Positions 3,001 to 57,749 of a stretch of DNA of 64,000 nt are shown in pieces. The translations under genes were made by a program, and so were the position numbers. This DNA comes from Rhizophagus irregularis (Eukaryota; Glomeromycota; Glomeromycetes; Glomerales; Glomeraceae): positions 682,001 through 746,000 of the forward strand of contig NC_089442.1 in NCBI RefSeq assembly GCF_026210795.1, read 5' to 3'. Under the pieces are notes generated by a model. That model did no database searches and was not told where the DNA came from. It saw nothing but the letters and a program-made list of their open reading frames with translations. How positions within the stretch are numbered: position 1 is the first letter of the stretch; the number at the start of each line of letters is the position of its first letter.

Positions 3001-3290
3001 ACTAAAATTAATAGAAAAAAGGAAGCTTGGCCCTGAATATGCTGTAAAAACTCACCCTGGAGCAATTTATACTAGTAGATTATTAAACTTTTTAATTTCT
3101 AGTTCATCATCCATTAGTTCATCATCAACAACTTCATTTAATACGAAACAAGGTATTAATTTTATTATATTTATAATTAATTATTTTGAAACACTAACGA
3201 TTTATCAAAATTTTCAACTACATTTTTTATATTTTAGAGTATATTTCAAAAGAATTTGAGTATGATATTAATGATGCTAAATGGTATTAA
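2..3290 (+). CDS. Protein kinase with repeated Cys-rich N-terminus (5' partial)
   Basis: Four exons fit: 2-2164, 2234-2433, 2503-3152, 3238-3290; all introns are GT-AG and frame is kept, giving 1,021 visible residues. The start lies before the window. Residues 1-660 are Cys-rich, with CRYCLTTNIIFG recurring at about residues 21, 304 and 587, so the unit is ~283 residues and probably binds several zinc ions. The kinase domain follows: glycine loop AEGGFGIIYKATW near residue 680, VAVKK lysine at 706, HRDLHSGNIL with catalytic Asp near 801, and DLG (for DFG) near 824, then APE and the family tail HPGAIYTSRLLN. All key catalytic residues are present, so it is probably an active Ser/Thr or Tyr-like kinase. 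The intron after NEV is the same one used by the other kinases in the window. Substrate is unknown. Confidence 0.85.
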
Positions 3291-10929: not shown

Positions 10930-10937
10930 AAAAATAA

Positions 10938-13088: not shown

Positions 13089-13160
13089 TTTCTATAAATT
13101 GTTAGATATTTACTGCGGATTTTAAGCGATTTTAACAATTTGCAAGAAAGAGTCCTGATC

Positions 13161-22160: not shown

Positions 22161-23450
22161 AAAAAATAAAAAAATAAAAAAATAAAGTAATATTATTGTG
22201 AAAAATACAATTTTTTTTATGAGTATGATGTCTAATTTTATGAGAATTAGATGTAATAAGTTCAATAATGTATTTGAAAACAAATTATCAGTTTAAAAAT
22301 TTATTTTATAAAAATTTTTGAACGTGTGAAATTTAATTTTATTTTTTATATATAAAAAATTACTCCTGTTACGCAAATCTATATATGACTATTCATTTCT
22401 AATTTATTTGCTACGCAAATACAAATATGACGTTATGGAAATTTTACCCCTAAATACGCAAAATTCTATATGACTTAATAAAAAATTTTATATGATGAAT
22501 AAGCAAATTTTTTTGTTACCGTTCATTCCAAAAGGATGGGAATAGAAAAATTATTATTAATACAACTGAGTTTTTTTGTAAAAAAAGTGATTAAAATTTC
22601 ATTAACTGGAAAAATTATATTAGCAATAAAGAATTGTGTACATATGAACATATGACCTGACCGCTAATCAAATAACATGGACAGATCATGTTACATAATT
22701 CAAATTATTTATACAGACAGTATGACAGAATATTTCTCGGTTTACACAATTTTTTAAAAAGCTATCAATCGGCCGGTAAGTTGTACAACCGATACCAAAA
22801 CTGCATATATATATAGTAAATAAATAATATTAAATTAATATTAATAATAAATAAATATTGCACATAATTATAATTTATTTATTAAATATATTAAATAATT
22901 CACTCAGTTTATACAATTATCGATCAGCCAGTAAGTTATATGGCCAATACCAAAACTGTGGTTTTTAATATATATATATAGTTAATAAATAATATTAATT
23001 ATTTATCAATATATTAAATAATTTTAGATATAACAGCTAAGTCATATATATAGCGAATAATAATTGCATTAATTACATGATAAATAAAATGAATAATCAC
23101 GTATTTTACATTATTTTTAGGAAAAAACTGGTAATTAATTACCAGAATTACAAATAAGAAAAATAAGATAATAAAATCCATGTATTACATAACACATATG
23201 ATCTTCGGGAATCGGATATTTTGGCAGGTTTCGGCCTATCTTAAGATTCGGCCTAATTTTGAAGTTTCAGTCAAAATTACAAATTTCAGCCAAAATTTTG
23301 GATTTCTGGAATTTTATTGGTTAAACCCTTTCACAATTTAAAAATAGGGTTTTAGTAAAAGACCCTTTATTTTGGTATATTAACACTGAAATGTAATTAA
23401 AATTCTTACATTAATAAATACATTTTTAATTTTTTCATATAATATAAAAC
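22160..23450. repeat. AT-rich sequence with a duplicated ~130 bp block
   Basis: The blocks at about 22738-22860 and 22905-23020 share gccagtaagttata…ccaataccaaaactg followed by ta-dinucleotides and gtaaataaataatatt. At 23190-23300 several ggcctaat and gtttcggcc motifs occur, a motif common to dispersed repeats in this window. No gene seen. Confidence 0.45.
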
Positions 23451-23451
23451 T

Positions 23452-26400
23452 ATGAGTTTTACTGTTAATCATTGGAGAGTTGAAGTATCAGATAATGATT
23501 CTGAATCTTATTTGAACTCAGAACATGAAAATTTTGATAGTTCATTATTTTCAAGTTATGCAGTTCGTCAACAAGCTAATGCAGATCATTCTCGAATTCC
23601 AATTCAACCATCTTTGTCTTCTGCAAACATCACCTTTAGAGCTTATTTTCCATCCTGGCAACCTTCTATAAAATTGTGTAACTTACAAGATCGGTTTAAT
23701 ACAACTATTCTTACTCAATATCCATGTGTTCCATGTAGTTATTGTTCTCGTTTACAGTATCCAACAAAGGCAAAGTGGGAACTATATGATAGAACATTTA
23801 AATATCCTTTAGAAGAAGCTTATTCAAATAATCCACAAATCACATTAGTTTTTCATACTGATGATTCTCAACCTGCACGTATAGCAACATGTTCTTCTTG
23901 TTATAATTCTAATAATCATCTTAAAATACCAATTCCTGATCCTATACCTGATGAAATTCAAAGTGTGCCTTTATATCATCGAATTTATCTCTCACCTATT
24001 CATCTTAGTTGTTCATTAGGCCGAGTTCCAAATAGCAATGCTTACACAAACTATCATCACTTAACTGGAACCTTTAACTACTCAAAAAATATTAATGCAC
24101 TTGCATTATATTCTGGTACCATTGGTGCTATACTAAATAATAATCAATCAAATTCATGGTATCATTCTTCACTTGATAATGCAGCAAGATGGTTACGAGA
24201 TCATAATCCTTATTTTAAACCATATCAAACTTTAATTAATCGTGGAACATGGGATGGGGCACCAATTATCTTTCCAAATGCCTCACTTAGTAATACTTCT
24301 CAAAATCAAGACCAACCATTATTTAACATTAATTCACGTCCTTCTGCTGTAATACTACCTCCCTATGAACTTGATGCAGAAATTCATAATGAAGATTACC
24401 ATTATAATCGATTAATGGCAGGATTTTTAACTGATCCATATAATAAAAAATTACCAATATCTTTTTATGATAAAAATATTGAACCACTTTTATTTCCTGA
24501 CCTTTTTCCATATGGAAAAGGATTTTATATAAATGATGAAAATACAAATCGGCGATTTACAGATAGTTTAGGTAATTATGCAAAATCTTTACTACTTTGT
24601 CCTGATCCCAGATGGAGATTATCTTGGTATTGGCCTCATTATATTTATTTAACAATTGAAAAATTAAGAAATCACCAAAATAGAAATCGAATTTTAAATC
24701 AATATAATACTTCACTATCACATCAATTAACAACAGCAGATTTAATTACCAATAGTATTTATACTGGACGTCCAATAATTAATGAAAAAAATACAACAAC
24801 TATACCTTCTTATATTAGAACAGGAGATTCTTATTTTCGCCAAAAAGAACATCATATTAATACTATGGTTCAAGGATCTGGTTTACCACAAATTTTTTAT
24901 ACTATGACTATGGCTGAAAATCATTGGTAACAAAGATCCCCTTCCTTCTAATCGTCCATTTCATACCTACTTGCATTATCATCATCGTTTAGCATCAATG
25001 CATCAATATCTTTGGAAAAATCCAAATTTAACTGATTGGGGTAACTGGTTACATCATTTTGAACGTGATGAATTTCAAAATCGTGGAGCAATTCATACAC
25101 ATGGTATAGCTTATTTATCTAAATCAATTTCTGAATTAATTGATTCTAATGTAATTAGAGCAGATATGCCAGATCCCAATTCTGAACCAGAATTATATGA
25201 ATTGGTTAAAAAACATCAAATTCATACTTGTGATTCACGTTGTGGAGGTCCAGCTCCATCTGGTTCACGTTGCAAAAAAGGTTTTCCTCAACCATATTCA
25301 GATACTACACATGAAGATCCTAATTCCTTAAGATATATTTATCATCGTACTAAAGAAGAAGATTTATATGTTATTCCATATCATGCACCAACATTATTTT
25401 TATGGAATGGTCATATTAATTTTCAATATGTAACAACACATCAATTTGCAAAATATATGACTAAGTATGTTACAAAATCTGAACCATCAGAATATTTTGA
25501 TATTTCTGAACCTGATGCATTTCGAAAACATATTTTAGCAAGACGTCTTGGATCAATGGAATTAATGATTCTTTTACTTGGATATTCAATATGTCGATCA
25601 TCAATTGCTGTTGAATTTCTTCCTTCTATTCCTCCTGAAATAAGAACTAAATCTATAAAACCACTTTATTTATTACAACAAGAAGAACAATTATCTCCCT
25701 ATTGGGATGATGCCATTGATAAATATTTTGATCGTCCATCTGATAATGAATTTGATAGTATGACATATCCTTTTTATCATTGCAATTATACTATACAAAA
25801 AAGTCAGCCAAAAAATGGAATATATTATATAGATAAAAAAAACTGCTTTGTAAGAAAAAGACAAAAAGAAATTCTTGTACATTTTCAACATTTAACAATT
25901 CAGCAATCAGAATCATTTTATTATCAACAATTACTACTTAGATTACCTGTTAGAAGTGAAACTGATTTAAAAAGCTTATATCAAACTTATAAAGCTCATT
26001 TTGAAGCTAAATATCCTACTGAATATTCATTAACTTTAAATTTTGTACAAAATTCAATGCAATCTAATATTCAAAGATATACAAATAATTATCAAAATTT
26101 AGTTAATAATTTGATATCTTCATTGCATGTAAACTTACAAGAAATTATTGGAAATCAGTTAAATAATTTGTTACGTCAACCTATTCGCTCTTTAAATCTC
26201 TCATCTATGCTACTTTCTGAAGATCAATACAAAATAATGAATATACTTACAAATAGTTGGGGAGAAAGATTACATTCTAAACATCCTTATTTTTTTCTAA
26301 CTGGTTCAGCAGGTACTGGTAAATCTTTTATGATACATCTAATTAAAAATTTTTTAGCTGATAAAAAAACTGAATATTTATTGATGGCTCCTACTGGTGT

Positions 26401-27523
26401 TGCTGCACAAAATGTAAATGGAAAAACTATACATTCAGCACTATATATTAGAAATACTCAAACCTATTTTGAAACATTATCTCATTATAATAATCAACAA
26501 TTTGAAAAACTTAGCCAGATTAAAGCTATTATAATTGAAGAAGTATCAATGGTATCATCAATTCTTTTATCTTTTATTAGTTCATTATTTGCAAAAATTA
26601 ACAAATCACCAGTACCTTTTGGTGGAATTCCAACTTTACTAATTGGAGATATTGCTCAACTTCCACCTGTAAGTGGTAAACAAGTTTTTTATGCTCCAGA
26701 ATGGCAAGAATTTTTCCCACTTTTTCTTACAACTTCTCATCGCCAACAAGATAGATCATTTTATAATATATTAGAAGAAATGCGAATAGGAAATATAAGT
26801 TCAGAAACAAGAAGATTAATTGATGAAAAAGTGCAATCATATCAAAGTAACAATGAAATGTCAACTGATACTACCTATATTTTTGGATTTCGTCATAGTG
26901 CAGATTCAATTAATAATTTAATCTGTGGTTATCTTCCTATTTTTAAAGATATCTCCTCTGGATTTTTAATTTCTACAGCTATTGATTATGTTAATGAAAA
27001 AGAATGTATACCAAAAGAATATGATAAACAATTTAGACATTATACTAATTTACCATCTGAATTAATAATAAGAGAAGGAGCAAGAGTAATGTTTCTAACT
27101 AACAAATTATTTAATGAACAACTTTGTAATGGATCAATTGGTGTGGTAACTAAATTAATAAATGAAAATCAAGTAGAAGTGGCATTTCCAATAAATAATG
27201 GGATAAATCAAGTTATAGTAGAAAAAATTACAACTTATTTTAACTTACATGGAGCTTCAGCACAACGAACACAATTTCCACTTCAAAATGCATTTGCTCT
27301 AACTGTACACAAGACACAAGGCCTTACATTACCCCATGTAACTGTATCATTGGATGAACAAATGTTTGCTCATGGGCAATCTTATGTAGCAATAAGTCGT
27401 GCCACATCTTGGGAAAATCTAGAAATCCAATCTTTTGATCCAAATGCAATAAAAGTAGATGATGCAATGTTGTCAGAATTAAATAGATTACAGGAGAAGT
27501 TCAATACAATGTATTTATCATAA
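23452..27523 (+). pseudogene. Helitron Rep-helicase with one frameshift
   Basis: Two ORFs, 23452-24930 and one open through 27523, form one Helitron transposase of about 1,356 residues interrupted by a single extra base around 24928 (…ENHW stop; the next frame continues NKDPLPSNRPF). The first part holds the Helitron N-terminal region with Cys pairs (CVPCSYCSRL) and IYLSPIHLSCSLGR. The second has the HUH nuclease motif in RGAIHTHG (25087-25104), the Tyr pair in AKYMTKYVTK (~25450), and a PIF1-type helicase: GSAGTGKS Walker A (~26302), IIIEEVSM Walker B, GDIAQLPP, and the C-terminal HKTQGLTL and YVAISRATSW. Catalytic motifs are all present. It drives rolling-circle transposition if the frameshift is bypassed or a sequencing error. 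Element ends were not located. Confidence 0.85.
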
Positions 27524-29507: not shown

Positions 29508-30338
29508 TTACTTTGTAAAATCAATAACTTCTACTGAATTATTGTTGATATTATCATACTTTGGGAGATCCTTTGTAAATGGATTAAGTAACCGAGAAGT
29601 ATAACAAGCTTTTGGATGAGTAGTTAATTGGTTACTTCTAATACATGAAAATCTTAATTTTTTATTTTGTGCTTCTTCAATTTGCTTATTAATTTCTTCT
29701 TTAATTTCAGTAGCATTTGGTCTATTATTTGGATTCGTATCCCAACACTTTTTCATCAATTCAATGTAACATTGTGGTGCTTCATGCTCATTAATTTCAG
29801 GTCTAATTCCATTGCATATCTTTAATGCTAAAATATTATCATGAGCACAATTAGCAAAGGGTTGTCTTCTAGTTGCTATAAAATACATAATCATACCAAA
29901 ACTATATATATCTGCTGCTTGAGTATAAGGATTTCCTTTTAATACTTCAGGAGCTACATAAGACATAACTCCATAAACTTTTGTTTCATCTGTATTACTT
30001 ATATTACTGACTTCTCTACATAATCCCATATCTGAAATGCATATTTTATTAATAGATTTAGAATGAGCAAAATATTCAATATTAGGCAATATTAATATAT
30101 TTCCTGTATGTAAATCATGATGAACCATTTGATTGTCATGAATAATTTTAAGACAATCAATAATATTATTCAATATATATAATTTTTCAGACCAATACCA
30201 AGATTGTTTAATATATTTATAATTAACAAAATTTCCATCTGCAAGTTGAAGAACTATAATATAATCTTTTGTATATGGATCTTGAGATATTCCATATATT
30301 TTAAGAATTCCATTATCACAAATAGAGTAATTTTTAAC
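29508..30338 (-). CDS. Kinase array exon 15: hinge and C-lobe
   Basis: 276 residues to the stop: YGISQDPYTKDYIIVLQ hinge, HHDLHTGNIL catalytic loop (Asp kept, preceding Arg replaced by His), ISDMGLC in place of DFG, VMSYVAPEVL, DIYSFGMIM, CW-x5-RP and the family tail HPKACYTSRLLN. The catalytic Asp and metal Asp are present, so activity is possible. It is the only C-lobe in the locus. The last codons AAG-TAA-GTT overlap a GTAAGT donor, so a further terminal exon is possible. Confidence 0.85.
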   Translation of the reverse strand, partial: VKNYSICDNGILKIYGISQDPYTKDYIIVLQLADGNFVNYKYIKQSWYWSEKLYILNNIIDCLKIIHDNQMVHHDLHTGNILILPNIEYFAHSKSINKICISDMGLCREVSNISNTDETKVYGVMSYVAPEVLKGNPYTQAADIYSFGMIMYFIATRRQPFANCAHDNILALKICNGIRPEINEHEAPQCYIELMKKCWDTNPNNRPNATEIKEEINKQIEEAQNKKLRFSCIRSNQLTTHPKACYTSRLLNPFTKDLPKYDNINNNSVEVIDFTK

Positions 30339-33300
30339 CTAATAAATTTTTTAAAAAAAATTGTTATATTAAAAGATATTGATTAGCTTCATTAATTTAA
30401 AGAAATTATACCTCATTTAATAATCCATTTGAAATATCTTGTGAATTGTTTAAACATTTTAAAGCAACTTTAATATCACGTGTCCTTTCCAACTCTTCAT
30501 AATTTGTATTACATTGTAATAGCCCATTTTTCCATAATGCTGAATATACTGTAGAAAAACCACCTTTACCTATTTTTTTGATATTACTAAACTGGTAGTA
30601 TGGTATCCATTCAACTATTATATCACCACAATTTTTAATTTTTAATTGCATTTCTTGAATTAGTTCATCAATTTTTTCATTTCCACTAGTCCAGTTTGCA
30701 AAATTATTTTTTAAATAATTAATCTGGCATGATTTGCACCACTCATATCTTATATCAGTATATTGATTGCTACATTTTTTACAATAACAATCTTCAAGAA
30801 TTATAATATAATCTTTTGTATTTGGATTTTGAGATATTCCATATATATTAGGCATAATGTTAATACTATCATATGATGTACCTTTAGTTGAATATACTAT
30901 AAAGTTCATCACATTATGATTATCAGTAAATGTTAATTTATTATCTAGTTTTAGTTTAATAGAATATGATTTAACCTGTTAAAATGCACAAAATCATTAA
31001 AATAAAGTAATTAAATTAAATGACAAAAGATAAAATTTATACCTTATTTAAAAATTCATTGGAAATATTTTGTGAATTATAAAAGCATTTTAAAGCAACC
31101 TTTTTATTAGGTATTCTCTTCCATTCTTCTTGATTATATTTTAATGGTCCATCCATCCATATTGCTGAATATATTATATTACAATTATTTTTATCAATTT
31201 CTTTAATATCATTAAACTGATTATATGGTATCCATTCAACTATTATGTCATCATAATTTCTAATTTTTAGTCGCATTTCTTGAATTAATTCAATAATTTT
31301 TTCATTACTGCTAGTCCAATTTATAAAATTAGTTTTTAGATTATTTATTTGACATAATTTACACCATTTATAGCTCAAATCAGTATATATTTCATTACAT
31401 ATTTCACAATGCTTTCCATTTTCAAGAACTATAATATATTTTTTTGTATCTGGATTTTGGGATATTCCATATATTTTAATAATATTATCATATTCAACAA
31501 AATAGGATTTAATCTATTAATTATTAAATATAAGAAAGGTTATAAAAATAAATTATATTGCAAAGAAATTAGAAAATTTCATACCTTATTTAAAAATTCA
31601 TTTGTAATATTATTTTGTGAATTAACTAAATATTTTAAAGTAACCTCTTTATTAGATATCTTTTTCTGTTCTATCTTATTATAATTATATTTTAATGAAC
31701 CATCTGTCCATATTGCTGAATATAATGGAGCAGAATCATTTTTGCCTACTTTTTTGATTTCATTAAGCTGATTATATGGTATCCATTCAACTATTATATC
31801 ATTACAATTTTTAATTTTCAATTGCATTTCTTGAATTAATTCATCAATTTGATTATTTCCACTGGTCCAATTCACAAAATTCTTCTTTAAATTATTTATC
31901 TGGCATGTTTTGCACCATTTATTATTAGTATATATATTAATACATTCTTCACAAATAATCCCATCTTGAATAACTAAGATATAATTTTTTGTATCAGGAT
32001 TTTGAGATATTCCATATATTTTAGGAAAATTATCTATACTTTCAATAGAATAAAATTCAGTTTCCTAGATATATTAAAAATTATTATATTAAAAAATAAT
32101 ATTAATAAAAAAATTACAATGAAATTAAAATTTTGTACCTTATTTAAAATTTTATTGGTAATATTTTGTGAATTATATAAACATTTTAAAGCAACTTCTC
32201 TATTAGGTATCCTTTCCCATTCATTTTGCATATACTTTAATGGGCCATTTATCCATATTGCTGAATATAGTAAGGTGAGATCGCTTTTACCTATTTTTTT
32301 AATATTATTAAACTGGTTATATGGTATCCATTCAAATATTGTATCATCATGTCTTTCAAATTCTAATTGCATTCCTTGAATAAATTTATCAATTATTTTA
32401 TTTCTACTAGTCCAATTTGCAAAATTTGTTTTTAAATTATTTATTTGACATGATTCACACCAATTTAAGTATATTAATGTGTATATTTCTCCACACTTTT
32501 CACAATGATTTCCATATTCAAGAACTAAAAGATAATTTTTTGTATTTGGGTTTTGTGATATTCCATATATTTTAGGAGGATTACAAGTAAAATCGTCCTC
32601 ATCTATTACAATATCATATGGTTTAATTTGCTAAAATATAAAAGATTTTTATTATACACATGTAATAAGGAATCATAAATATTATAAATGAATTTGAAAT
32701 TTTATACCTCATTTAAAAACTCTTCAGTAATATCTTGTGAATTATGTAAATATTTTAAAGCAACTTTAATATTAGGTATTCTTTTCCATTTATAATAATC
32801 ATGTTGCAATGGACCATTCATCCAATTTGCTAAATATAATGTAAAAAAATCACCTTGAACTATTTCTTTAATATTATTAAATTGATTATATGGTATCCAT
32901 TCAACTACTGTATTATTATACTTTTCAATTCTTAATTGCATACATTGAATAACTTCATCAATTATTTCATTTCCACTAGTCCAATTTACAAAATTTTGTT
33001 TTAAATTATTTATTTGACATGAATTGCACCATTTATAATTTAAATCTTTATACATTTTACCACAGTTTTCACAATGCCAATCTTGAAGTACTATAATATA
33101 ATCTTTTGAATCTGGGTTTTGAGATATTCCATATACTTTGACGATATTGTTAAAACGATTTAATCCATAATTTTTTGAAAAAAGTTTAGATGCTTCAATG
33201 ACACAATCCCTTATACGTTTTTCAGTAATATATGTTTTAATCTGTAAAATATAAGAAAAATCATTAACACTAAGTATTTATATTGAATTATAAAGAAACC

Positions 33301-36300
33301 AGAAATTCATACTTCATTTAAAAATTCATCAGTAGTATACTGTAAATTATCTAAGCAAATTAAAGTAACTTTTTCATTAGGCTTTCTTTCCCATTCCATT
33401 TTATCATAATTATAACATAATGGACCATTTACAAATATTGCTGAATTACTTTCATGTAATGCTTTGATATTATTAAACTGGTTTAATGGTATCCATTCAA
33501 TTATTGTGTCATTTAACCTATTAATTTCTAGTTGCATTTGTTGTATGAATTCGTCAATTTTTTCATTTTCACTAGTCCAGTTTGTAAAATTTTGTTTTAA
33601 ATCATTAATTAAACATTGCTTGCACCATTTATATTTTATATTTTTATATATATTATTACAGATTCCACAATAAACATTTTGAAGTACTATAATATAATCA
33701 TTTGTAGCTGGGCTTTGAGATATTCCATATATTTTAATAATTTTATCATATTCAGCAAAATATGATTTAATCTGTTATGATATAAAAGTTATTTTAATAA
33801 AAGCACTTAATTACAAAAAAAATTAAAATTTTATACCTCATTTAGAAATTCATTATTAATATCATTATTTTGTGAATTACTCAAATATTTTAAAGCAACT
33901 TCCTTATTAGGTATTCTTTTCTGTTCCATTTTATCATAATTATATTCTAATAAACCATCTGTCCAAATTGCTGAATATAATGGAGCAGAATCATCTTTGC
34001 CTATTTTTTTGATATCAACAAACTGTTTAAAAGGTATCCATTCAATTATAACATCATTATGCTTATTAATTTTTAATTGCATTTCTTGAATTAATTCATC
34101 AATTTTTTCATTTCCACTAGTCCAATTTGCAAAATTTTGTTTTAAATTATTTATTTGACATGGGTTACACCATTTATACCTTCTATATGTATATACTTTA
34201 CCACAGTACTTTGCTGAAACCTCAGATTTAGCGACTATAACACTTCTGGCATGTGACTATCATGTGACTATAGAGTCAATCGCTAGTGGCATTTTTTTCA
34301 TTTCGACTGTCCAGTTTCTACCTCACTACTTTATATTTTCTACATGGAAGTAATATGAAACTTTAATTATTTTTTAATTTTGATAAATACGTTTTTATTT
34401 TTGAAAATACAATTATTTTTTTTTAGAAAAATTATGGAATTATATAGATTCTAGCTTTTCACTTCATATCTTCTATATAGCGACGATAAATCATTTATTA
34501 ATTTTAATGAATAATTCGAAAATAAAATAAAATGTATTAGTATTATTAAAATGTACTTATAGTATTAGTACGAATCAGTCGAATCATTGTAAAATTTAGA
34601 CATTATGAAATGCATTATAATAAATATATAATAAAAATTCCATAAATTTAAATAATAAATTTAAATATAAGATATATCGATATAATAAAAATTCTATAAA
34701 TTTAAATAATAAACTGAATATAAATAAATTGTGTAATTAAACATAAGACATATCGATATAATAAAAATTTTATAATAAATAAATTGTGTAATTAAACATA
34801 AGATATATCGATACATATAGTTGGGGCTTCATAAACCTCGTAGCCGCGCTTATTTAAGGCAATGTATTACTAGACCTATGCTAAAGATGACTTTAGCAAG
34901 GCTTTCTTTGTGAATTAAAAGAAATTTCATACACTTTGCCAGCTGGTGAGCAAGCCTATGAAGTAACCCACATTCTTATAAGATTCACTAATAAAATAAT
35001 TTAAAAACTTTTGTAAATTTTCTATTGTTTTTCACTATGATCTAATTAGAATATACATTAACTGAAATTAATGTTTGAAATTTACAAAAATAAAATAATA
35101 ATAAATTTCAAAAATTAATTACCAGCTTTGACTTCATGTTCTTGAATCGGAATATCACGTTCAACTCTTGTTTTTAATTGCCCTGGTCACGATCACCTGG
35201 TTAAAGTAACACAATTTTTTATACAATGTTGTGTCATGTAAAACAAAAAATTCCAATATATATTTTGAAAGATATGACGTATATCTTTGCTTTTCATTAA
35301 TAAAAAGAATTAAAACAAATATCGATGATTTTTTAAAAAGAGTGAAGTTATTACCTGCATTAGTCTTTAGCACTTTTGTCGGACTTGCAGAAGATTCAAT
35401 TGAGTGGTTAATATATGATACTGCCACGACCATGCCCGCGACCACAACCTGACCTTGTTCACCACCATTTTTTCCACAACCTTCTAATCAAATTAATTGT
35501 GGCTTCTTTTTCATTTGGCACTGTAGCTTCTCGAACTTTTCATAATCTTGTCATATTAAATAAATACTAGTTATAATTGTTTAAAAATGTTCAAAAGATT
35601 TCTTATAAAATTGAAGGTACTGTAGACATGAAATTATTAATTTTATTATTGCGTGTGGTAAGAAACAAAGTTTATCAAGTTATATAAGGGAAAGTTTAAA
35701 TGTCTATTTATTTAAGTTTAATATATTTATTTAAGCTTAATATAAGAAAAAGTCTATTTAGAGAATAATTTAAGCTTTAATATATAGAACCATATCGGCT
35801 AATAATCAAAATTGGGCCTAATTTTATATAGTAATTTTGATCAACGTTACACCATCACAATTTATTATAGCGACAATTGATCTACAATTAGGGAGCAACA
35901 GTTACACATGATAATTTAAACTATTTAACCCAATTTAAACTTTTTAACCTTTGTGGCTTTTCCCTTTTCTTCTTTCTGTTGGAAAAAAAAATCTTAACGA
36001 AATGTTTCTTGTTCTCTCAGTTTTCCTGGACGCGAAATTTGGTAAGTTTGTCAAACTTTTTATTTTTAATTGTTTTTATCTTATAAGTTTTATTTCAAAG
36101 AAATTACGAAACTTTCTGTTTTTTTTTTTTAGGAGTTCAGGTTTCAGATAATTTAGTACTTCTATGCAAATATGCAAAATTTTAAAAAATGATGCGTAAA
36201 AATTTTCAGTAGGGAATAGATATTTTTTTTTAATATGTTTCTTTTAACAAAACTTTCTAACATTTCGTTCTCTCTTTTTTTAGACAGGTTGGAACTTGGA

Positions 36301-39300
36301 ACTCAGCTTTTAGATGGTGAATTCGGTGGGTTTTAGATGGATCTTCTTTATTTTATTTTAACGAAACTTTACTGGAATCGAAATCTTTTAAACAGCAGGA
36401 AGGGTCTTTAGACATGTGGGAATCCGGTGTGCTATTTTCATATTTTTTCTATAATTCATTTATTTTAATGAATGGTATTAACGGTTCATATCTTTTTTCT
36501 TTTTCTAGGTGGCTCTTTCGGGTCTCTGGAGTTCGGATGTTAAGTGTTTTGATGAAGAAGTGGCTACTAATGAACATTTTGTTTTTCTTTCATATTCTTA
36601 GAAGCGTGGGAATTTGGTGAATATTTTTTCTTCAAATTAATTCTATTAACAAAATGATTGCTAACATCTCATCTTTTAAGCGACTTTTTGGCTCTTTGGA
36701 CATGGGGATTTTGGTTAGTATTGTTGTATAGTTTAAATCTTTGATTTTTAATGAACTATTACTAACAGCTCGTTTTTAGATTTTTTTATATAGCTAATTA
36801 TTTGATATCTTTGGATAAATGAATGAATATTTTTGGATTATTCAACGAAATGATTACTAACATTTCGTTTCTTTTACTTTTTAGACGATCCCTCTCCCTT
36901 AAATAGACAGTTTTTCTCTTCGGACACGTATTTTGGTAGGGAATGGGCTCCTTTTCTTCTTTATTCACTGCTTTTAACGAACAGTTGCTAACAGTTCATT
37001 TGTTTTCTTTTTTAGACGCGTAGAACTTTGTAGAATTTTGGTGAGCGGTTTGGTCTTTTCTTTATGTTTTTAACGAACTGTTTCTAACAGTTCGTTCATT
37101 TTCCTTTTTTTTTAAAAAATAACGATAAGTTTTTGATTCTTTTTACGCTTTAGATGCGTGGAATTTTTTTTAATCTTTTTTTATTTTAATGAAATGTTTC
37201 TAATGGTTCATTTTCTTTCTTTATTTAGACATGACAGGTCATTCAGATTTCATATCTATACACATGTAATATAGATTGATTGTTCTCGAGACAAAGAATT
37301 TTGGTAAGTGTGTAATGCATAATTTTTTTTTTCTTTATTCCTCCTTTTAATGGACTCTTACGAACGTTTTTTTCTTTTATAGGCGATTTTTGGTTCTCTT
37401 GAATGAGTAAGCGTGTGGGAAATTCGAGTAGAGAGGGTTCTTTTGAATTTATTTTTTAACAGAATGAAACTTCAGGTCTCTTGGATGCGCGGGGAGCTCT
37501 TCGATTTTTTCTCCTTTTTAGACGAGTCTGTTTATTATGTATTTACCATGAATCTACTATATATTGATTATGTATTTACTGTAATTATCTACATATTTAT
37601 TATAAAGTTAATACAAATTTATTATAAATTTATTATAAATTTACTACATGTTTAATGCAAATCATATATATCATTACTTTAAATCATTTATACAGTTTCT
37701 TGCTAACATTTATATAGTTTCTTTGTGTTGGCAATACAATTTCTATATTATGATTACATATTTTCTACATTAAATACATACAACTGCGTTAGAACTAACA
37801 TAGAGTAGCCGTACGCCTACTACATTAAGTGGCGGCAGCATGGCTACTACATAGCCGCGATTTCGTGGGTTTCAGCAAAGTATTCACAATAACAATCTTG
37901 AAGTATTAAAATATAATTTTTTGTTTCTGAGATTTGAGATACTCCATATATTTTAATGTCAAAATCATCTGATTCAAATAATGATGAATTATCCTATTAT
38001 AAAGAAAAAAATTATTATACTTAAAATGAATAGCATAGTAATAAAAATTTCATACCTCCTTTAGAAATTCATCATTGGTTAGTTTAAAAGAATTATCGTA
38101 AAATATTAAATTGATTTTTTCATTAGGATTTCTTTTCCATTCCATTTTATCATAATTATAACATAGTGGTCCATTCATCCAAATTGCTGAATATAACGTT
38201 GTGCCCATTTCTTTGATATAATCAAACTGATTATATGGTATCCATTCAAATATTGCATCGTCTAATTTATCAATTTTTAATTGCGCTTTTTGAATGAATT
38301 TATCAACTTTTTCGTTCCCGCTGGTCCAACTTGCAAAATTTTGTTTTAAGTTATTTATTTGACATGGGTTACACCATTTGTACCTTTTACCTGTATATAT
38401 TTTGCCACAGTTTTCACAATAACAATCTTGAAGTACCATAATATAACCTTTTGTATCTATGTCTTGAGATATTCCATATATTGTAATAATATTACTATGA
38501 TCGTCATTTTCAATAGTATATGATTTAGCCTGTTAAAATATAAAATAGTTATTTTAATTAAAAACGCTTAGATTAATTAGATTAAATTAGATTAACTTTC
38601 GAAGGATTCAAAAAAAATTTCAGACCTCATTTAAAAATTCATTGATAATATTATTTGAATCAACTAAATATTTTAAAGCAACTTTTTTATTAGGCATCCT
38701 TATCCGTTCTATTTTATCATAATTATATTTTAATGGACCATCTGTCCATATTGCTGAACATATTATACTATAATCATCTTTATCTATTTCTTTAATATCA
38801 TTAAGCTGATTATATGGTATCCATTCAACTACTATGTCATCATAATTTCTAATTTTTAGTCGCATTTCTTGAATTAATTCAATAATTTTTTCATTACTGC
38901 TAGTCCAATTTATAAAATTAGTTTTTAGATTATTTATTTGACATAATTTACACCATTTATAGCTCAAATCAGTATATATTTCATTACATATTTCACAATG
39001 CTTTCCATTTTCAAGAACTATAATATATTTTTTTGTATCTGGATTTTGGGATATTCCATATATTTTAATAATATTATCATATTCAACAAAATAGGATTTA
39101 ATCTATTAATTATTAAATATAAGAAAGGTTATAAAAATAAATTATATTGCAAAGAAATTAGAAAATTTCATACCTTATTTAAAAATTCATTTGTAATATT
39201 ATTTTGTGAATTAACTAAATATTTTAAAGTAACCTCTTTATTAGATATCTTTTTCTGTTCTATCTTATTATAATTATATTTTAATGAACCATCTGTCCAT

Positions 39301-41827
39301 ATTGCTGAATATAATGGAGCAGAATCATTTTTGCCTACTTTTTTGATTTCATTAAGCTGATTATATGGTATCCATTCAACTATTATATCATTACAATTTT
39401 TAATTTTCAATTGCATTTCTTGAATTAATTCATCAATTTGATTATTTCCACTGGTCCAATTCACAAAATTCTTCTTTAAATTATTTATCTGGCATGTTTT
39501 GCACCATTTATTATTAGTATATATATTAATACATTCTTCACAAATAATCCCATCTTGAATAACTAAGATATAATTTTTTGTATCAGGATTTTGAGATATT
39601 CCATATATTTTAGGAAAATTATCTATACTTTCAATAGAATAAAATTCAGTTTCCTAGATATATTAAAAATTATTATATTAAAAAATAATATTAATAAAAA
39701 AATTACAATGAAATTAAAATTTTGTACCTTATTTAAAATTTTATTGGTAATATTTTGTGAATTATATAAACATTTTAAAGCAACTTCTCTATTAGGTATC
39801 CTTTCCCATTCATTTTGCATATACTTTAATGGGCCATTTATCCATATTGCTGAATATAGTAAGGTGAGATCGCTTTTACCTATTTTTTTAATATTATTAA
39901 ACTGGTTATATGGTATCCATTCAAATATTGTATCATCATGTCTTTCAAATTCTAATTGCATTCCTTGAATAAATTTATCAATTATTTTATTTCTACTAGT
40001 CCAATTTGCAAAATTTGTTTTTAAATTATTTATTTGACATGATTCACACCAATTTAAGTATATTAATGTGTATATTTCTCCACACTTTTCACAATGATTT
40101 CCATATTCAAGAACTAAAAGATAATTTTTTGTATTTGGGTTTTGTGATATTCCATATATTTTAGGAGGATTACAAGTAAAATCGTCCTCATCTATTACAA
40201 TATCATATGGTTTAATTTGCTAAAATATAAAAGATTTTTATTATACACATGTAATAAGGAATCATAAATATTATAAATGAATTTGAAATTTTATACCTCA
40301 TTTAAAAACTCTTCAGTAATATCTTGTGAATTATGTAAATATTTTAAAGCAACTTTAATATTAGGTATTCTTTTCCATTTATAATAATCATGTTGCAATG
40401 GACCATTCATCCAATTTGCTAAATATAATGTAAAAAAATCACCTTGAACTATTTCTTTAATATTATTAAATTGATTATATGGTATCCATTCAACTACTGT
40501 ATTATTATACTTTTCAATTCTTAATTGCATACATTGAATAACTTCATCAATTATTTCATTTCCACTAGTCCAATTTACAAAATTTTGTTTTAAATTATTT
40601 ATTTGACATGAATTGCACCATTTATAATTTAAATCTTTATACATTTTACCACAGTTTTCACAATGCCAATCTTGAAGTACTATAATATAATCTTTTGAAT
40701 CTGGGTTTTGAGATATTCCATATACTTTGACGATATTGTTAAAACGATTTAATCCATAATTTTTTGAAAAAAGTTTAGATGCTTCAATGACACAATCCCT
40801 TATACGTTTTTCAGTAATATATGTTTTAATCTGTAAAATATAAGAAAAATCATTAACACTAAGTATTTATATTGAATTATAAAGAAACCAGAAATTCATA
40901 CTTCATTTAAAAATTCATCAGTAGTATACTGTAAATTATCTAAGCAAATTAAAGTAACTTTTTCATTAGGCTTTCTTTCCCATTCCATTTTATCATAATT
41001 ATAACATAATGGACCATTTACAAATATTGCTGAATTACTTTCATGTAATGCTTTGATATTATTAAACTGGTTTAATGGTATCCATTCAATTATTGTGTCA
41101 TTTAACCTATTAATTTCTAGTTGCATTTGTTGTATGAATTCGTCAATTTTTTCATTTTCACTAGTCCAGTTTGTAAAATTTTGTTTTAAATCATTAATTA
41201 AACATTGCTTGCACCATTTATATTTTATATTTTTATATATATTATTACAGATTCCACAATAAACATTTTGAAGTACTATAATATAATCATTTGTAGCTGG
41301 GCTTTGAGATATTCCATATATTTTAATAATTTTATCATATTCAGCAAAATATGATTTAATCTGTTATGATATAAAAGTTATTTTAATAAAAGCACTTAAT
41401 TACAAAAAAAATTAAAATTTTATACCTCATTTAGAAATTCATTATTAATATCATTATTTTGTGAATTACTCAAATATTTTAAAGCAACTTCCTTATTAGG
41501 TATTCTTTTCTGTTCCATTTTATCATAATTATATTCTAATAAACCATCTTTCCAAATTGCTGAATATAATGGAGCAGAATCATCTTTGCCTATTTTTTTG
41601 ATATCAACAAACTGTTTAAAAGGTATCCATTCAATTATAACATCATTATGCTTATTAATTTTTAATTGCATTTCTTGAATTAATTCATCGATTTTTTCGT
41701 TACCGCTGGTCCAGTTTGTAAAATTTTGTTTTAAATCATTTATTTGACATGGTTCACACCATTTATAATTAATTTTTGTGTATATTTCACCACATTTTTT
41801 ACATGTAATATCATCTTGAGATTTCAT
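29508..41827 (-). CDS. Kinase gene with 14 tandem N-lobe exons
   Basis: Fifteen exons in one frame, all introns phase 0, GT-AG and mostly 57-96 bp: 41827-41426, 41360-40902, 40830-40297, 40219-39728, 39653-39174, 39102-38626, 38529-38056, 37993-33837 (split by a transposon), 33771-33313, 33241-32708, 32630-32139, 32064-31585, 31513-31043, 30975-30412, 30338-29508. Without the transposon the product is about 2,543 residues. Exons 2-14 each run from a kinase hinge strand (YGISQ-P-T) through a Cys-x2-Cys … KWC-x2-C ribbon and NWTSGNE to the N-lobe end (N)E/K-V. Exon 15 gives the C-lobe. An ordinary family member has only one such N-lobe exon. One giant protein, mutually exclusive exons, or a mostly dead array are all possible. 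Seen: the exons and frames. Inferred: that they are spliced together. Confidence 0.65.
30412..30975 (-). CDS. Kinase array exon 14: intact N-lobe
   Basis: 188 codons. This is the only module with a canonical glycine loop (IGKGGFSTVYSALW) together with the VALK lysine. It lies next to the C-lobe exon, so modules 14 and 15 together make a complete kinase. It also has ~30 extra residues before the hinge and a CKKC…CKSC ribbon. Confidence 0.8.
31043..31513 (-). CDS. Kinase array exon 13
   Basis: 157 codons. Counterpart of exon 6, but identity stops inside the exon near 31243. Loop region IDKNNCNIIYSAIW lacks glycines; VALK is kept. Ribbon CEIC…CKLC. Confidence 0.7.
31585..32064 (-). CDS. Kinase array exon 12
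   Basis: 160 codons, the same sequence as exon 5 (offset 7,589). Loop VGKNDSAPLYSAIW, lysine in VTLK. Ribbon CEEC…CKTC. Confidence 0.7.
32139..32630 (-). CDS. Kinase array exon 11
   Basis: 164 codons, duplicate of exon 4. Loop IGKSDLTLLYSAIW, lysine in VALK. Donor AAG|GTACAA. Confidence 0.7.
32708..33241 (-). CDS. Kinase array exon 10
   Basis: 178 codons, duplicate of exon 3. It has about 25 extra residues before the hinge. Loop IVQGDFFTLYLANW, lysine in VALK. Confidence 0.7.
33313..33771 (-). CDS. Kinase array exon 9
   Basis: 153 codons, duplicate of exon 2. The loop is shortened (HESNSAIFVNG) and the ATP lysine is replaced (VTLI), so this N-lobe cannot bind ATP normally. Confidence 0.7.
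33837..37993 (-). CDS. Kinase array exon 8, split by a transposon
   Basis: Coding parts are 37993-37881 and 34206-33837. Removing 34209-37880 and one TA copy leaves an open 161-codon exon with a proper ribbon (CEYCGKVY…CNPC). The 3' part (33837-34100) matches exon 1 apart from one base (33961), while the ribbon is closer to exon 7, so this exon is a recombinant. Confidence 0.7.
34618..34815. repeat. ~65 bp tandem repeat inside the transposon
   Basis: Three degenerate units share ataagatatatcgatataataaaaatt followed by taaatttaaataataaa or ataaattgtgtaattaaac. Confidence 0.6.
35930..37520 (+). repeat. Microexon-like array with branch-site hairpins
   Basis: About a dozen degenerate units of roughly 100-150 bp. 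Each has a TTTT(T)AG acceptor, a 15-60 base segment (often agACGCG or GTGGGAAT, ending gaaTTTG), a GTAAGT/GTGAGC-like donor, and then an inverted repeat such as AACGAACTGTT…AACAGTTCGTT whose right arm begins at a CTAAC branch-site motif. No long ORF runs through. Confidence 0.5.
38056..38529 (-). CDS. Kinase array exon 7
   Basis: 158 codons with a shortened loop (MGTTLYSAIW) and no ATP lysine (INLIFYDN). Ribbon CENC…CNPC. Confidence 0.7.
38626..39102 (-). CDS. Kinase array exon 6
   Basis: 159 codons. Loop IDKDDYSIICSAIW lacks glycines; VALK present. Donor GAG|GTCTGA is the least typical of the set. Confidence 0.7.
39174..39653 (-). CDS. Kinase array exon 5
   Basis: 160 codons starting ETEFYS, hinge YGISQNPDTKNYILVIQ. 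Loop VGKNDSAPLYSAIW. Confidence 0.7.
39728..40219 (-). CDS. Kinase array exon 4
   Basis: 164 codons starting QIKPYD. Ribbon CEKCGE…CESC. In the linker, NWTSRN replaces NWTSGN. Confidence 0.7.
40297..40830 (-). CDS. Kinase array exon 3
   Basis: 178 codons, the longest of this block. Ribbon CENCGK…CNSC, lysine in VALKYL. Confidence 0.7.
40902..41360 (-). CDS. Kinase array exon 2
   Basis: 153 codons starting IKSYFAEYD. Ribbon CGIC…CKQC; NWTSEN in the linker. Glycine loop and ATP lysine are both lost. Confidence 0.7.
41426..41827 (-). CDS. Kinase array exon 1 with start codon
   Basis: 134 codons from an ATG at 41827 (MKSQDDITCKKCGEIY), the usual start of this kinase family; another in-frame ATG lies upstream at 41902 but leads to an unrelated segment. 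Ribbon CKKC…CEPC, loop IGKDDSAPLYSAIW, VALK present. Confidence 0.75.
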
Positions 41828-45357: not shown

Positions 45358-46976
45358 TTAATTACTTTTATCTATAATAAAAAATAGTTTAATTAAAATT
45401 AATAAATCAAAAAATCACACGCAAAATTTTGTTAGCATTATAAAATAAATTTAAATTATTATAGTATGTTATATATGTTTACCTGAATAATCTATTTCAG
45501 TATTATCAACATTTTTTGGTTCTGGAAGATTTTTAAAATCTAAAAGTTTACTTGTATAAACTGCTTGAGGATGTGTCACACATGATATACTAGTATCATT
45601 AGATATTAAAGGTAACTTTTTATTAATTTCATCTGCTTCTTTAGCTTGTTTATAAATTACAGAATTCGCTTTATCATCATCAATCCATAAATCATAAATT
45701 AAGTATCGTAATTCACTTGCATTAGGTCGTTTTAAAGGGTCAGCATCCCAACATCGATTAATAATGTCAAAAATTAATTGAGGAATTCTATAATTAGACT
45801 TTGGCCTCAAACCATTACAAATTTTCATTGCTAGGGATTCATCATGAGCTATATCATAATAAGGAGGGAAACCTGTACAAATTTCATATGCGATAATTCC
45901 ATATGCATAAATATCACTTGCTTGAGTATATTCTTTTCCTCTTAAAACTTCTGGAGCTACATAAGGTAATACTCCATATATTTTTTTATTACTATTTTTA
46001 GGGGATTTGACATTTGCTGGTTGACATAATCCCAAATCAGTAATATAAGCATTATTATTAAAATTGCTTAATATATTCCCACAATGAAAATTCTGATGAA
46101 TTAATCCTTTATTATGAATATACTGAAGATTAGTTGCAATAGTATGTAAACTATCCAACTTTTGAAACCAATTCAGTGAAGTGAAGTTGTTATTTAAATG
46201 TTGTCTTAAACTACCTTTTTTTAATTCCATTACCATCATAAAATTATTTGTTTTTGGATCTTTGGTAATGCCAAAACAACGAACTATGAAACTTGTATTA
46301 TATAATAAAATGCTTGATTCAACCTTAAAAGAAAAAAATTATAAATATTATTTAACATTTATTTTAATAATACTAAAATATATAAAAAATATCTTACTTC
46401 TTTTAAAAAATCTGCTTTAATATTTTGTGAATTATGTAAGCACTTTAAAGCGACTTTTGTTTTGTCATCCCGGTCCCATTGATTATTGTAATAATTCCAT
46501 ATAGGACCATCTTTCCAAACTGCTTTAAAAGTAGTTCCAAATCCCCCTTTTGCTAAATATTCAACATCTTCAAATTTATCATATTCAATCCACTCTATGA
46601 TATGATGTTTAACTTTAGCTTTTAATTGTGCTTTTTGAATAAATTTATCAACTTCATGATTTCCACTTGTCCAATTTTTGAAATTTTGTTTAAAATGTTG
46701 TGAATTACATGGCCAACAATATCGATAGTTAGTTTTAGGTTGATTACAATTATCACATAAACCATATTCTTTATAACGTTTTTTTAATTCTTTGTCTATT
46801 ATTAGTTTATCAATTAACGATTCTTGTTCTTCAGTCAAAAAAAACCGATTTAAATCTTTTATTTGTTCAATTACATCATCACTTAGTTTATTATCAACTA
46901 ACGATTTTTGTTCTTTAGTCAAACGATGACGATTAAAATCTTTTATTTTCTCAAATACAAGTTTAATTTTGTCCAT
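45358..46976 (-). CDS. Kinase-family protein, predicted pseudokinase
   Basis: Exons 46976-46398, 46323-45483 and probably 45371-45358 (ending DKSN), phases 0 and 1; if the last intron is not spliced, translation stops at 45469 after KHI. About 477 residues. An N-terminal pair of LTEEQ/LTKEQ helices is followed by a CDNCNQP…CWPC ribbon, NWTSGNHE, glycine loop LAKGGFGTTFKAVW and VALK. The hinge reads FGITKDPKTNNFMMVM. The catalytic loop is HQNFHCGNIL, so the catalytic Asp is Asn, while DLG and APE are kept. It probably binds nucleotide but should not transfer phosphate efficiently. The tail HPQAVYTSKLLDF matches the family. Confidence 0.8.
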
Positions 46977-48980
46977 TTCAATAAATAATTTATTTAAAAA
47001 AATATATTATTAATTCGTATAAAATAGTGGTGACAAACTAATAATTAGTTTAACGTCGAAAAATTTGAAGGGGGGGTGAGGGAATAATTTAAACAAATAT
47101 GATATTTAAACATATTAAATTTTCGGAAGTTTTCGGTAAAATCGGAAATATTCGGTACACCCAATTTCAGAAAAGAGAGGGGGTGCTTTAAACATATGTG
47201 AACATATGTGTTTAAATAAATTAAATTATTTAATTATTTTAAAAATTTTCAAAAATAAAGGAGAACGTTAAACAAAAAATTAATTTGGAATGGAAATGAT
47301 TTCAAGATCGACAATAAAATTATGAAAAAAAGACTAGTTAAAATACACAAAAATCTGATCGGCAATTAAATTGATTAAATGACGAAATTAATTAAAATTA
47401 ATAAGAATTTTCTAACTATTAGGGGTGATGATCACCGGTGACTGAATTATGACGATCGACCAGCATTAAAAAAATATAGTGCCGGTAAAAATTGATAATT
47501 CTGGCCAACGGTGATGATCGTCCCCAGTGATATTTGAAGTAAAAATCAATTAATAAAATAGATGAATAATTACTAAAATATCGTTATAAATAATATGATT
47601 TAAACATTTCTCAACTGGCAAATCTATCATATTCAATCCATTCTCTAAATTTTACAAAATCATATTGTAATAATATATAAATTTTTTAATTATCACAAAA
47701 ATTATTAATTTAAACGTTCTTTTAGAGCTGAATGTGTGTAAAACATCACATAATTGGTAATTCACAAATTAATCTTTTCCAAAGTGAGTATTAGCTTTCA
47801 AACTTTCAATTTTTAATATATTTTAATTCTTTATAATATTTCCGCTAGAATATGCAAACTCCATGAGATGAGGAATTTACCGGTGAAACTATTCTGTTTA
47901 TTATAAGTTAAAATAATTTGATTGGCTGTCAGGGTCACGTATACGTTTGGTCAACCTGTGGATTTTTATTTTTTACTTAATAAATATTTTTTTTCAATTC
48001 TTACAGATCGGGAAATTTAATAAATAGCTTCAGATCAAAAACATCTTTCACTAATACAACTCATTAATAAAATAGATTAATACTAGGTAAATTAGATATA
48101 TAAGTGTTGATTATAAATAAATATATACAATAAAAAAAGTAAATAAAAATATGAATAATAAAATCAACATAAAAAAAAAATTGAAAAATAAAAAATATAT
48201 TTGTAAATCGAAAAAAAAACTAATTAAAATCAATTTTTTTTTTACTAAAAAATTTTTTTTTTTTTTAGTGTTCAGTGTCCGGATTACAACATTTGAGCGT
48301 TGGTTAAACCGAACTTCTAACTTGGAGGCGTAATATTAAATATTACGTGATCTAGTATAAAAGTATAAAAAGCGTAAACAATTGTTCACGCCAATCACTT
48401 TTGCCAAGAAAAAAATATGATACATGCGAAATTCCATACTAATACAATAATTGGACAAGTATCCAAAATTTTATTAATACAGATAAAAATAAATTTCATG
48501 TTTGACGATCTATACCTGTATATTTTACTACATTTCTCTTTCTATCTACTCAATATCATATTCGAACTTCGAAGGGAACGTATCTTTTTTAACTTATTTT
48601 TTGTATAGGTGGTACCGTGGTAGGGACTCCCATATTAGCCTTTTCTTAGGTGCTAGTCGCGATGATTTTTTTGTGGCGGTATTAAAGTGAATTTTGTGTG
48701 CTAATTTGTTGTTGTGTTGCGTTGTGAAACTATCTTGATAATTTCATAATTCAAGTGATATTTCTTCCATAGTAGGGTTTCGATCCTCGGGTTGGATCGC
48801 AGATTTGTTGAAAAAATTGGAAAATCGAAAAATGAATTATCAAACTAGCTTTTTTTATTCATTACACAATGTACTGCATGTATCGGCCATTGCCGCAGGT
48901 AACATTTATACAGTGATAAAAAATAAAATATGAAGTTCGGGACGCCCAATTTATCTGCAATTTGAACGTAGTTACATGTA
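46977..48980. other. AT-rich intergenic region
   Basis: Upstream of the pseudokinase. It contains the dispersed repeat at 47393-47545, listed separately. Several short ORFs between 48150 and 48700 have no coding character. Otherwise no gene. Confidence 0.35.
47393..47545 (+). repeat. Dispersed repeat, partner of 62063-62215
   Basis: GGGGTGATGATCACCGGTGA…, CGATCGACCAGCATT, TAGTGCCGGTAAAAATTGAT and TTCTGGCCAACGG follow in order. The block at 62063-62215 is its reverse complement at high identity, including flanking ttgaagtaaaaat and aattttctaacta. Confidence 0.75.
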
Positions 48981-56215: not shown

Positions 56216-57749
56216 ATGTCTTTATGTTCTGATTGTAAAAAACCAAATACTAGAATATTTTAGTGTCAAAATTGTAACTCAAAACGATTTCAAGAAAATT
56301 TCGATAATTGGACCAGCGGAAATGAATTAATAGACAAATTTATACAAGATGCTCAATTAAAAGCAAGAAATTATAATGAAGTTATAGAATGGATTCCTTA
56401 TGATCGTTTAAGAAATATATTATTTCTCGCTAGTGGTGGTTTCAGTACCGTTTATAAGGCTATTTGGTTGGATGGATATATTGAAAAATGGAATAATGAA
56501 AGGAAACAATGGTGTAGACATATTAATTCAATAAATGATGAAGATTGTAAGAATTCAAAAGCTAAAGATGTTAAATCACCACTTAGTGGTAATGAAAATA
56601 GGTTCGGTAAAATAAACGTAGTACTAAAAAGTTTAAATAATTCCAAGAATATTAATCCCACTTTTTTAGAAGAGGTAACGTTAATTTTATTGTAATTCGT
56701 TAATTATATTGTCTATTATCTTATTTTATTTTTATATTATAATTTATTTAGTGGGAAAATTATTTAAAATTTGTATATTCGGCTGGAAATGATAGAATAC
56801 TTTCGGTTCAATTATATGGAATATCCGAAAACGTTAAATTATATGGTCGTATTAAACGAGGTGAAACTCGGAAATTTAATAGACAATTTAATGATAAAAA
56901 AATGTAACCCAAATGATAAATATGGTAATTTTATATTACTTAGCATAAATGTAATTTATTTCACGGTGATCTTCATAGTGGTAACTTGTTATTATCTACT
57001 GATATGCACGCTCATATAAGTGATTTGGGTTTAAGTCGACCAGCTGATAAACCTTCTAAATCTGGTGATGTTTATGGTGTAATTCCTTATATCACTCCTG
57101 AAGTTTTAAATGGTGGACCTTATACAAAATCTTCCGATATATATTCTTTTGGTATAATCATGTGGGAAATGACTTCTGGCGTTCCTGCTTTTAGTAATGT
57201 TCCTCACGATTTTGATCTTATCTTGAATATTTGTTGTCATGAATTAAGACCAAGGATCGTTGGAGGTACAGAAGTTGAATACATAGAATTGATGAAAAGA
57301 TGTTGGGATCAAGATCCTGAAAAAAGACCATCATCTTTAGAATTAATTGATTATTTTAGAACATGGAAGAATGAATATAGATTTAATTGGCACGAAAGAG
57401 TACCCGTCCCAGGTAATAAATAAGCAAATAGTGAAAACATATTAAAAAAATTTTACTGACTTATTGTTTTTTTTCGTCAATAGAAAATACATCTCTTCAA
57501 TATCATCCAAAGTCTTGTTACACGAGCAGATTAATTAATTGCTCCGAATTAAATAAAATACCGTCTAAAACGAAAAATGGTCATAGCAGAATGCCTAGTC
57601 ATGGTAACAATTATATACAGTACCGATAATTTTTTCTTTTTTTTTGCATTATATTTACTGATTTTTCGTATTTTTTTAAAAAAATAGCTGATTGTCAACT
57701 TACCCAGGATATTCTTGAAAGCCTTCAAGATGAATATTTACGAGATTGA
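56216..57749 (+). pseudogene. Broken family kinase gene
   Basis: Reads from MSLCSDCKKPNTRIF (ATG 56216) with TAG at codon 16 (56261), then NWTSGNE, glycine loop ASGGFSTVYKAIW and the exon end EE|GTAACG at 56674. The next exon (from 56753) reaches YGISEN, then a one-base frameshift separates YMVVLNEVKLGNL. The segment between hinge and catalytic loop (helices D-E) is missing, and HGDLHSGNLL, DLGLSRP, ITPEVL and the C-lobe continue to 57412. Terminal exons 57484-57603 (HPKSCYTSRLIN) and 57688-57749 are intact. Two independent breaks mark it as a recent pseudogene. Confidence 0.75.

Follow-up and report, generated by a model that had tools for sequence, protein, structure and literature searches.

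What would be encoded by a gene in which only the first half of a kinase domain has been multiplied? This question is raised by a locus of the arbuscular mycorrhizal (AM) fungus Rhizophagus irregularis, located in a window of 64,000 nt (the whole stretch of DNA analyzed; C14:682001-746000, C14 being contig NC_089442.1 of assembly GCF_026210795.1). On the minus strand of this window, from 41827 to 29508, 14 exons encoding kinase N-terminal lobes (N-lobes) are followed by one exon encoding a C-terminal lobe (C-lobe), confirming the layout described in an initial annotation made from the sequence alone. That annotation offered two interpretations, a series of N-lobes that closes with one complete kinase or a Dscam-like splicing choice of one N-lobe at a time, and is partly borne out: the chain is well supported by the recurrence of the architecture in the genome and by the polarity of the glycine loop, and the splicing choice is not. 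With a probability of roughly two in three, intact members of this gene class appear to encode one polypeptide in which a chain of pseudo-N-lobes precedes a single active kinase of the TKL type.

Organization of the Exon Array

A full module comprises, in order, β4-β5 (YGISQNP..YIIVL), a zinc ribbon (CxxC..WCxxC), a helix (NWTSGNEKIDELIQEMQLKI), the sequence EWIPYNQF, β1-β3, and αC, with β-strands assigned from kinase motifs. The αC helix ends at the intron and the following exon opens just ahead of β4, which corrects the earlier placement of the exon start at the hinge. The array thus looks like an amplified N-lobe exon that was fused once, at β5, to the next zinc ribbon. The first exon, E1, starts with MKSQDDITCKKC, and the last N-lobe exon, E14, is the sole module of the window array to combine a GKGGF loop with the β3 lysine and the αC glutamate. 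Aligned modules share 57-65% identity with E13, except E6 at 87%. Thirteen of the 14 N-lobe exons are uninterrupted, each with a length divisible by three; the splice donors read GTATAA (6), GTATGA (5), GTACAA (2), and GTCTGA (1), and the acceptors end in AG. The previously predicted length of ~2,543 residues is recovered as a sum, ~2,383 from the exons without E8 and 161 from E8 minus an insert, however E8 is not intact.

A Recurring Gene Class

The genome searched comprises 146,748,485 bases in 32 contigs. Using the E14 protein as query, 150 of 4,999 candidates were scored and all 150 matched. The DNA motif for WTSGN..(I/V)D was found at 1,912 sites against none for the reversed control. A shorter WTSGN motif, whose matches include ordinary kinases and probably a number of repeats of other origin, was found at 2,230 sites against 31 in the control. 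Motif pairs lie 507-567 nt apart in 229 cases and 446-506 nt apart in 326, at least 555 in all with no pairs in the reversed-pattern controls; these are lower bounds, as pairs were counted only when the motif was exact and the spacing 446-567 nt.

Arrays were examined in two sets from this one genome, hand-picked for an array-like appearance. The first comprises 29 fetched places with clustered hits plus the window (30 arrays, 178 full modules, the 3′ part of E8 being counted as one), and the second comprises five arrays of other subfamilies from three plus three further genome pieces. Fetched arrays of the first set carry 3 to 9 modules and those of the second set 12, 21, 11, 13, and 15, counts that leave out one open frame of L034 (7809-8217). 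All 35 arrays (29 fetched, the window, and five) have a C-lobe downstream of their modules, a result that describes the layout of arrays and not the share of kinases having them, since the selection favored arrays. In none of the arrays did an upstream C-lobe match exceed 90 bits, leaving one C-lobe per array (in L006 as two open reading frame pieces). The array layout is therefore a recurring genome-wide gene class, extending the initial annotation beyond its single locus. The longest array, L031/L033 (C2:1367000-1386700), contains 21 N-lobe modules that lack the zinc ribbon, followed by one C-lobe, and the common core is accordingly the N-lobe with the WTSGN helix and not the zinc ribbon. 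Judged by eye, L031/L033 includes modules that resemble repeated blocks. Among the matches listed, many arrays lie close together at C14 ~254,000-1,200,000 and C2 ~4.8-5.5 Mb.

The Terminal Kinase and the Polarity of the Glycine Loop

The C-lobe exon E15 matches Pkinase (E 1.4e-28), and the spliced E13-E14-E15 product matches PF07714 with an E-value of 2e-35 and 122.8 bits, against a cut-off of 23.1; its best matches in the PDB are RIPK1 (E 2.2e-17), followed by MLK, TAK1, and BRAF. The glycine loop, β3 lysine, and αC glutamate are all present in E14, and all four scored residues are present in 28 of 30 last modules. The catalytic aspartate of HxD, the asparagine, and the aspartate of DMG, as the DFG motif reads in array C-lobes, are found in 29 of 30 C-lobes, the thirtieth having a gap; at the position of the HRD arginine, 21 C-lobes have R, six H (including the window), and two C. 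The last module and the C-lobe are best read as a TKL-type kinase that is predicted to be active. None of the upstream modules E1, E5, E7, and E13 scored above the curated cut-off for any Pfam family, the best sub-threshold match being the NOB1 zinc ribbon (E 0.0033, 17.9 bits versus 24.9), and Pfam-based annotation thus overlooks these modules.

Residues were scored on an alignment of the 178 first-set modules (30 last, 30 first, and 118 middle). Both glycines of GxG are present in 28 of 30 last modules, as opposed to 1 of 30 first and 4 of 118 middle modules, so that the motif is kept in 5 of 148 upstream modules. The exceptions among the last modules are L017 and L021, arrays in which the true last module is fragmented; that of L017 still reads KIGKGGF. 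The second set, in which the loop was scored as GGF, gives the same picture, with 5 of 5 last modules versus 0 of 67 upstream. A Fisher test of this polarity (p = 2.7e-25) ignores relatedness and is descriptive only. Other positions are retained more evenly: the β3 lysine is present in 30 of 30 last, 27 of 30 first, and 104 of 118 middle modules, with an L-K motif at β3 in 71 of 72 second-set modules; all four zinc-ribbon cysteines are found in 29 of 30 last, 29 of 30 first, and 117 of 118 middle modules; and the tryptophan of EWIPY is present in all 178. The αC glutamate is found in 30 of 30 last modules, in 19 first modules (11 gaps), and in 83 middle modules, the others having K (17), N (1), or a gap (17). 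By these residues the upstream modules look like maintained pseudo-N-lobes. Loss of the glycine loop with retention of the β3 lysine suggests that the fold is kept and the grip on ATP abandoned, as a binding unit would require. A glycine loop restricted to the last module, together with near-invariant zinc-ribbon cysteines, argues both against a Dscam-like choice and against dead exons.

Splice Phase and the Question of Alternative Exons

Under a permissive model, phase-0 introns were placed at 167 of 167 first-set module junctions (neighboring modules closer than 260 nt); 165 of these introns measure 60-106 nt and two measure 187 and 191 nt. With strict splice sites, 149 of the 167 introns in the 30 arrays are compatible with phase 0, one with phase 1, and none with phase 2; in the second set, 58 of 72 are compatible with phase 0 and none with the other phases. 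The pattern is not a product of chance, and the earlier statement that all introns are in phase 0 is upheld. In 109 of the 167 modelled donors the sequence is GTATGA (82) or GTATAA (27), which puts an in-frame stop as the second intron codon, directly behind the exon, and intron retention would consequently end translation. Of the 30 arrays, 26 have an in-frame ATG shortly ahead of the first module, 16 of these with the start context M-x-x-Q; in the remaining four (L014, L015, L021, and L028) the true first exon may have escaped recognition.

A uniform phase would allow any module to join the C-lobe exon in frame, as in the tandem exons of one phase in Dscam-type arrays, and a choice of one N-lobe at a time would then vary the input of the kinase. 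This reading is hardly credible here, however, because a product joining an upstream N-lobe to the C-lobe would be a dead kinase: GxG is missing from 143 of 148 upstream modules in the first set and from all 67 in the second. Internal modules moreover lack their own start and would need the first exon, itself a pseudo-N-lobe in all but one of the 30 arrays, and the introns are short and ordinary. Functionally equivalent alternative exons were considered and rejected on the same loss of the loop, which sets these exons apart from those of Dscam.

State of the Window Copy

The window copy (Table 1) is split within E8 by an inserted DNA element with the ends CTTTGCTGAAACC, a 13-base inverted repeat and a TA target duplication. 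Searched separately, the two ends have at least 29 and at least 40 genome matches among those listed, their own place included, and both are dispersed repeats. The ends also lie near each other on other contigs, e.g., C28, C3, C4, C8, and C24. With the insert removed, E8 is an open frame of 161 codons. A full-length transcript may have been possible before the insertion, however the window copy is probably non-functional at full length because the transposon splits E8, and, barring removal of the insert by splicing, a complete product is now unlikely.

Table 1. Features of the kinase array and of a neighboring two-exon kinase, in window coordinates.
Feature	Position	Strand
E1, first exon: ATG, zinc ribbon, helix, pseudo-N-lobe, without β4-β5	41426-41827	-
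E2, N-lobe module	40902-41360	-
E3, N-lobe module	40297-40830	-
E4, N-lobe module	39728-40219	-
E5, N-lobe module	39174-39653	-
E6, N-lobe module	38626-39102	-
E7, N-lobe module	38056-38529	-
E8, 5′ part: β4-β5 and start of zinc ribbon, cut by transposon	37881-37993	-
Inserted DNA element within E8, 3,672 bp	34209-37880	.
E8, 3′ part: remaining zinc ribbon, helix, pseudo-N-lobe	33837-34206	-
E9, N-lobe module, copy of E2	33313-33771	-
E10, N-lobe module, copy of E3	32708-33241	-
E11, N-lobe module, copy of E4	32139-32630	-
E12, N-lobe module, copy of E5	31585-32064	-
E13, N-lobe module, 5′ part a copy of E6	31043-31513	-
E14, last N-lobe module	30412-30975	-
E15: β4-β5, single kinase C-lobe, stop codon	29508-30338	-
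Ordinary two-exon kinase: zinc ribbon and N-lobe exon, then C-lobe exon	45469-47006	-

Exons E9-E13 repeat E2-E6 with one identical run of 2,717 nt, E13 and E6 diverging in their 3′ parts, and by this comparison the five modules represent a recent block duplication. Neither this block nor the insert in E8 had been noticed in the initial annotation. The blocks, at ~31233-34100 and ~38822-41689, indicate either that module copy number is changing now or that the assembly is wrong here. A false duplication that inflates this long array would account for 2,717 identical bases shared by two blocks 7.6 kb apart, however it is very unlikely: the blocks differ in their flanks, their ends diverge, and similarly built arrays elsewhere lack the duplicated block. 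Mis-assembly would in any case cut the window count by five modules and nothing more.

Proposed Protein and Evolution of the Modules

In the proposed scheme, a TKL-type kinase had its N-lobe exon amplified in tandem, and intact arrays would yield a single spliced mRNA and from it a single long protein. Each upstream unit would consist of a zinc ribbon (none in one subfamily), a helix, and a pseudo-N-lobe completed by β4-β5 from the next exon, and the chain may form a repeat-built binding or dimerization platform that controls the active C-terminal kinase, the number and order of units being altered by unequal crossing-over. Both regulation by N-lobe contact and a use in recognition or as a decoy fit such a chain.

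Several observations weigh against this scheme. An AlphaFold model of one module, built with 10 window sequences, was poor (mean predicted local distance difference test score, pLDDT, 48.9), and Foldseek with this model returned 601 matches at E ≤ 10, of which none reached E ≤ 0.001; the N-lobes of EGFR (probability 0.82) and RIPK2 (0.60) among these weak matches were not used as evidence. The αC glutamate is partly lost in first and middle modules, the window array is itself interrupted, and 18 module fragments in 7 of 29 fetched arrays indicate that some members decay. The pooled ratio of non-synonymous to synonymous differences per site (pN/pS, by the method of Nei and Gojobori, a simple one that ignores the AT-rich composition) is high in modules, at 0.78 (76 close disjoint pairs) versus 0.71 in C-lobes (13 pairs), and the corresponding ratio of substitution rates (dN/dS) exceeds 1 in 13 of 63 same-class disjoint pairs, which implies either weak constraint or a mixture of constraint and diversifying change. 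A tree built from 179 modules, with the glycine-loop columns removed, had poor resolution, 85 of its 172 inner branches being open. On this tree the last modules require 16 changes and are not shown to form one clade, and the well-supported branches provide only four independent pairs, of which ~2.6 follow the expected direction and 0.0 oppose it, too few for significance.

The transposon, the fragments, and the pN/pS of 0.78 would also suit dead exon copies: on this view unequal crossing-over left the upstream modules behind as by-products, and the last N-lobe and the C-lobe are the only parts of consequence. As an account of the class this is unlikely, since the four-cysteine set is retained in 117 of 118 middle modules with the glycine loop alone lost, phase-0 splice sites are kept at every modelled junction, and 22 of 29 fetched arrays are free of module fragments. 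The pN/pS of the C-lobe is moreover similar to that of the modules, and median dN/dS is 0.53-0.57 by class (module pairs with dS 0.05-0.8); these values suggest rapid, somewhat constrained evolution at about the same level in modules and C-lobe, and do not prove diversifying selection. Modules also persist after whole-array copying. For 45 of the 178 modules the closest relative is found in the same array; for the other 133 it is found in a different array, and in 118 of these cases it belongs to the same positional class, indicating that whole arrays are copied with their order kept while single blocks duplicate within arrays. Death of the upstream exons remains an explanation for individual copies, the window copy included.

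The distribution of change along the module bears on another reading, in which the same polypeptide serves as a decoy or sponge: pseudo-N-lobes would imitate the kinase targets of foreign or rival proteins and the last kinase would report the attack. The regional pN/pS, given here descriptively, is 0.96 in β4-β5, 0.85 in the zinc ribbon, 0.65 in the helix, 0.73 in β1 and the glycine loop, 0.95 in the β2-β3 loop, and 0.62 from β3 to αC. Divergence of these half-domains near 0.95 in β4-β5 and the β2-β3 loop versus 0.62-0.65 in the helix and β3-αC, and the changes in module copy number, are consistent with decoys, and the pseudokinase of cereal tandem kinases has been proposed as an integrated decoy (PMC10260399). 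The reading is nevertheless doubtful.

Comparison with Known Kinase Systems

One comparison is within the window, where a neighboring two-exon kinase (Table 1) shares with the array the exon boundary after the αC glutamate, the zinc ribbon, and the WTSGN helix, but has one N-lobe exon and one C-lobe exon; this is presumed to be the ancestral layout. RIPK, MLK, TAK1, and RAF-type TKL kinases are the best sequence matches to E13-E14-E15 in the PDB, however they have a single N-lobe. The N-lobes of RAF and RIPK dimerize. In JAK, an upstream pseudokinase regulates the active kinase of the same chain, and in Gcn2 an upstream degenerate kinase part likewise regulates the active one; in contrast to the arrays, both contain one complete pseudokinase domain and not a repeat of N-lobes.

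The cereal tandem kinase-pseudokinases (WTK/Yr15, Lr9 WTK6-vWA) resemble the arrays in joining a kinase and a degenerate unit in one chain, and in being recent and variable. They differ in that whole kinase domains, usually two, are joined, whereas the arrays repeat N-lobes only, with 3 to 21 modules, zinc ribbons, and one C-lobe; no second complete kinase or pseudokinase with its own C-lobe was found in the arrays examined. No description of kinase N-lobe arrays was found in the open-licence PMC literature, which is weak evidence of absence.

Neighboring Loci

Further kinase pieces of the same family lie on the plus strand at 2249-3259 and 56264-57554, giving the window at least four kinase loci. 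The open frames at 5477-13091 and 23443-27523 read like what we take to be a reverse transcriptase pair of the long interspersed nuclear element (LINE) type and a Helitron-type helicase. On the minus strand at 58591-59544, an open frame of 317 residues presumably encodes a ubiquitin-like stretch, with a possible PARP-like part behind it.

Implications for the Kinase Repertoire of R. irregularis

The array architecture points to a new, repeat-built kind of signaling protein rather than a splicing switch. More tentatively, the freed N-lobe may have become a repeat unit comparable to leucine-rich or ankyrin repeats, providing an evolvable recognition array of up to 21 consecutive units with one live kinase as its output, and the arrays together would make up a large and rapidly changing system for intracellular recognition in an AM fungus, a possibility that is suggested here with some reserve. 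To our knowledge, the kinase repertoire of R. irregularis is among the largest known. One paper counts 2,533 kinase genes in this species (PMC10234402). If many of these kinases carry arrays of pseudo-N-lobes, the expansion would partly reflect more input units per kinase and not more kinases, and, if the proposed reading is true, the kinase N-lobe can persist as a stand-alone repeat.

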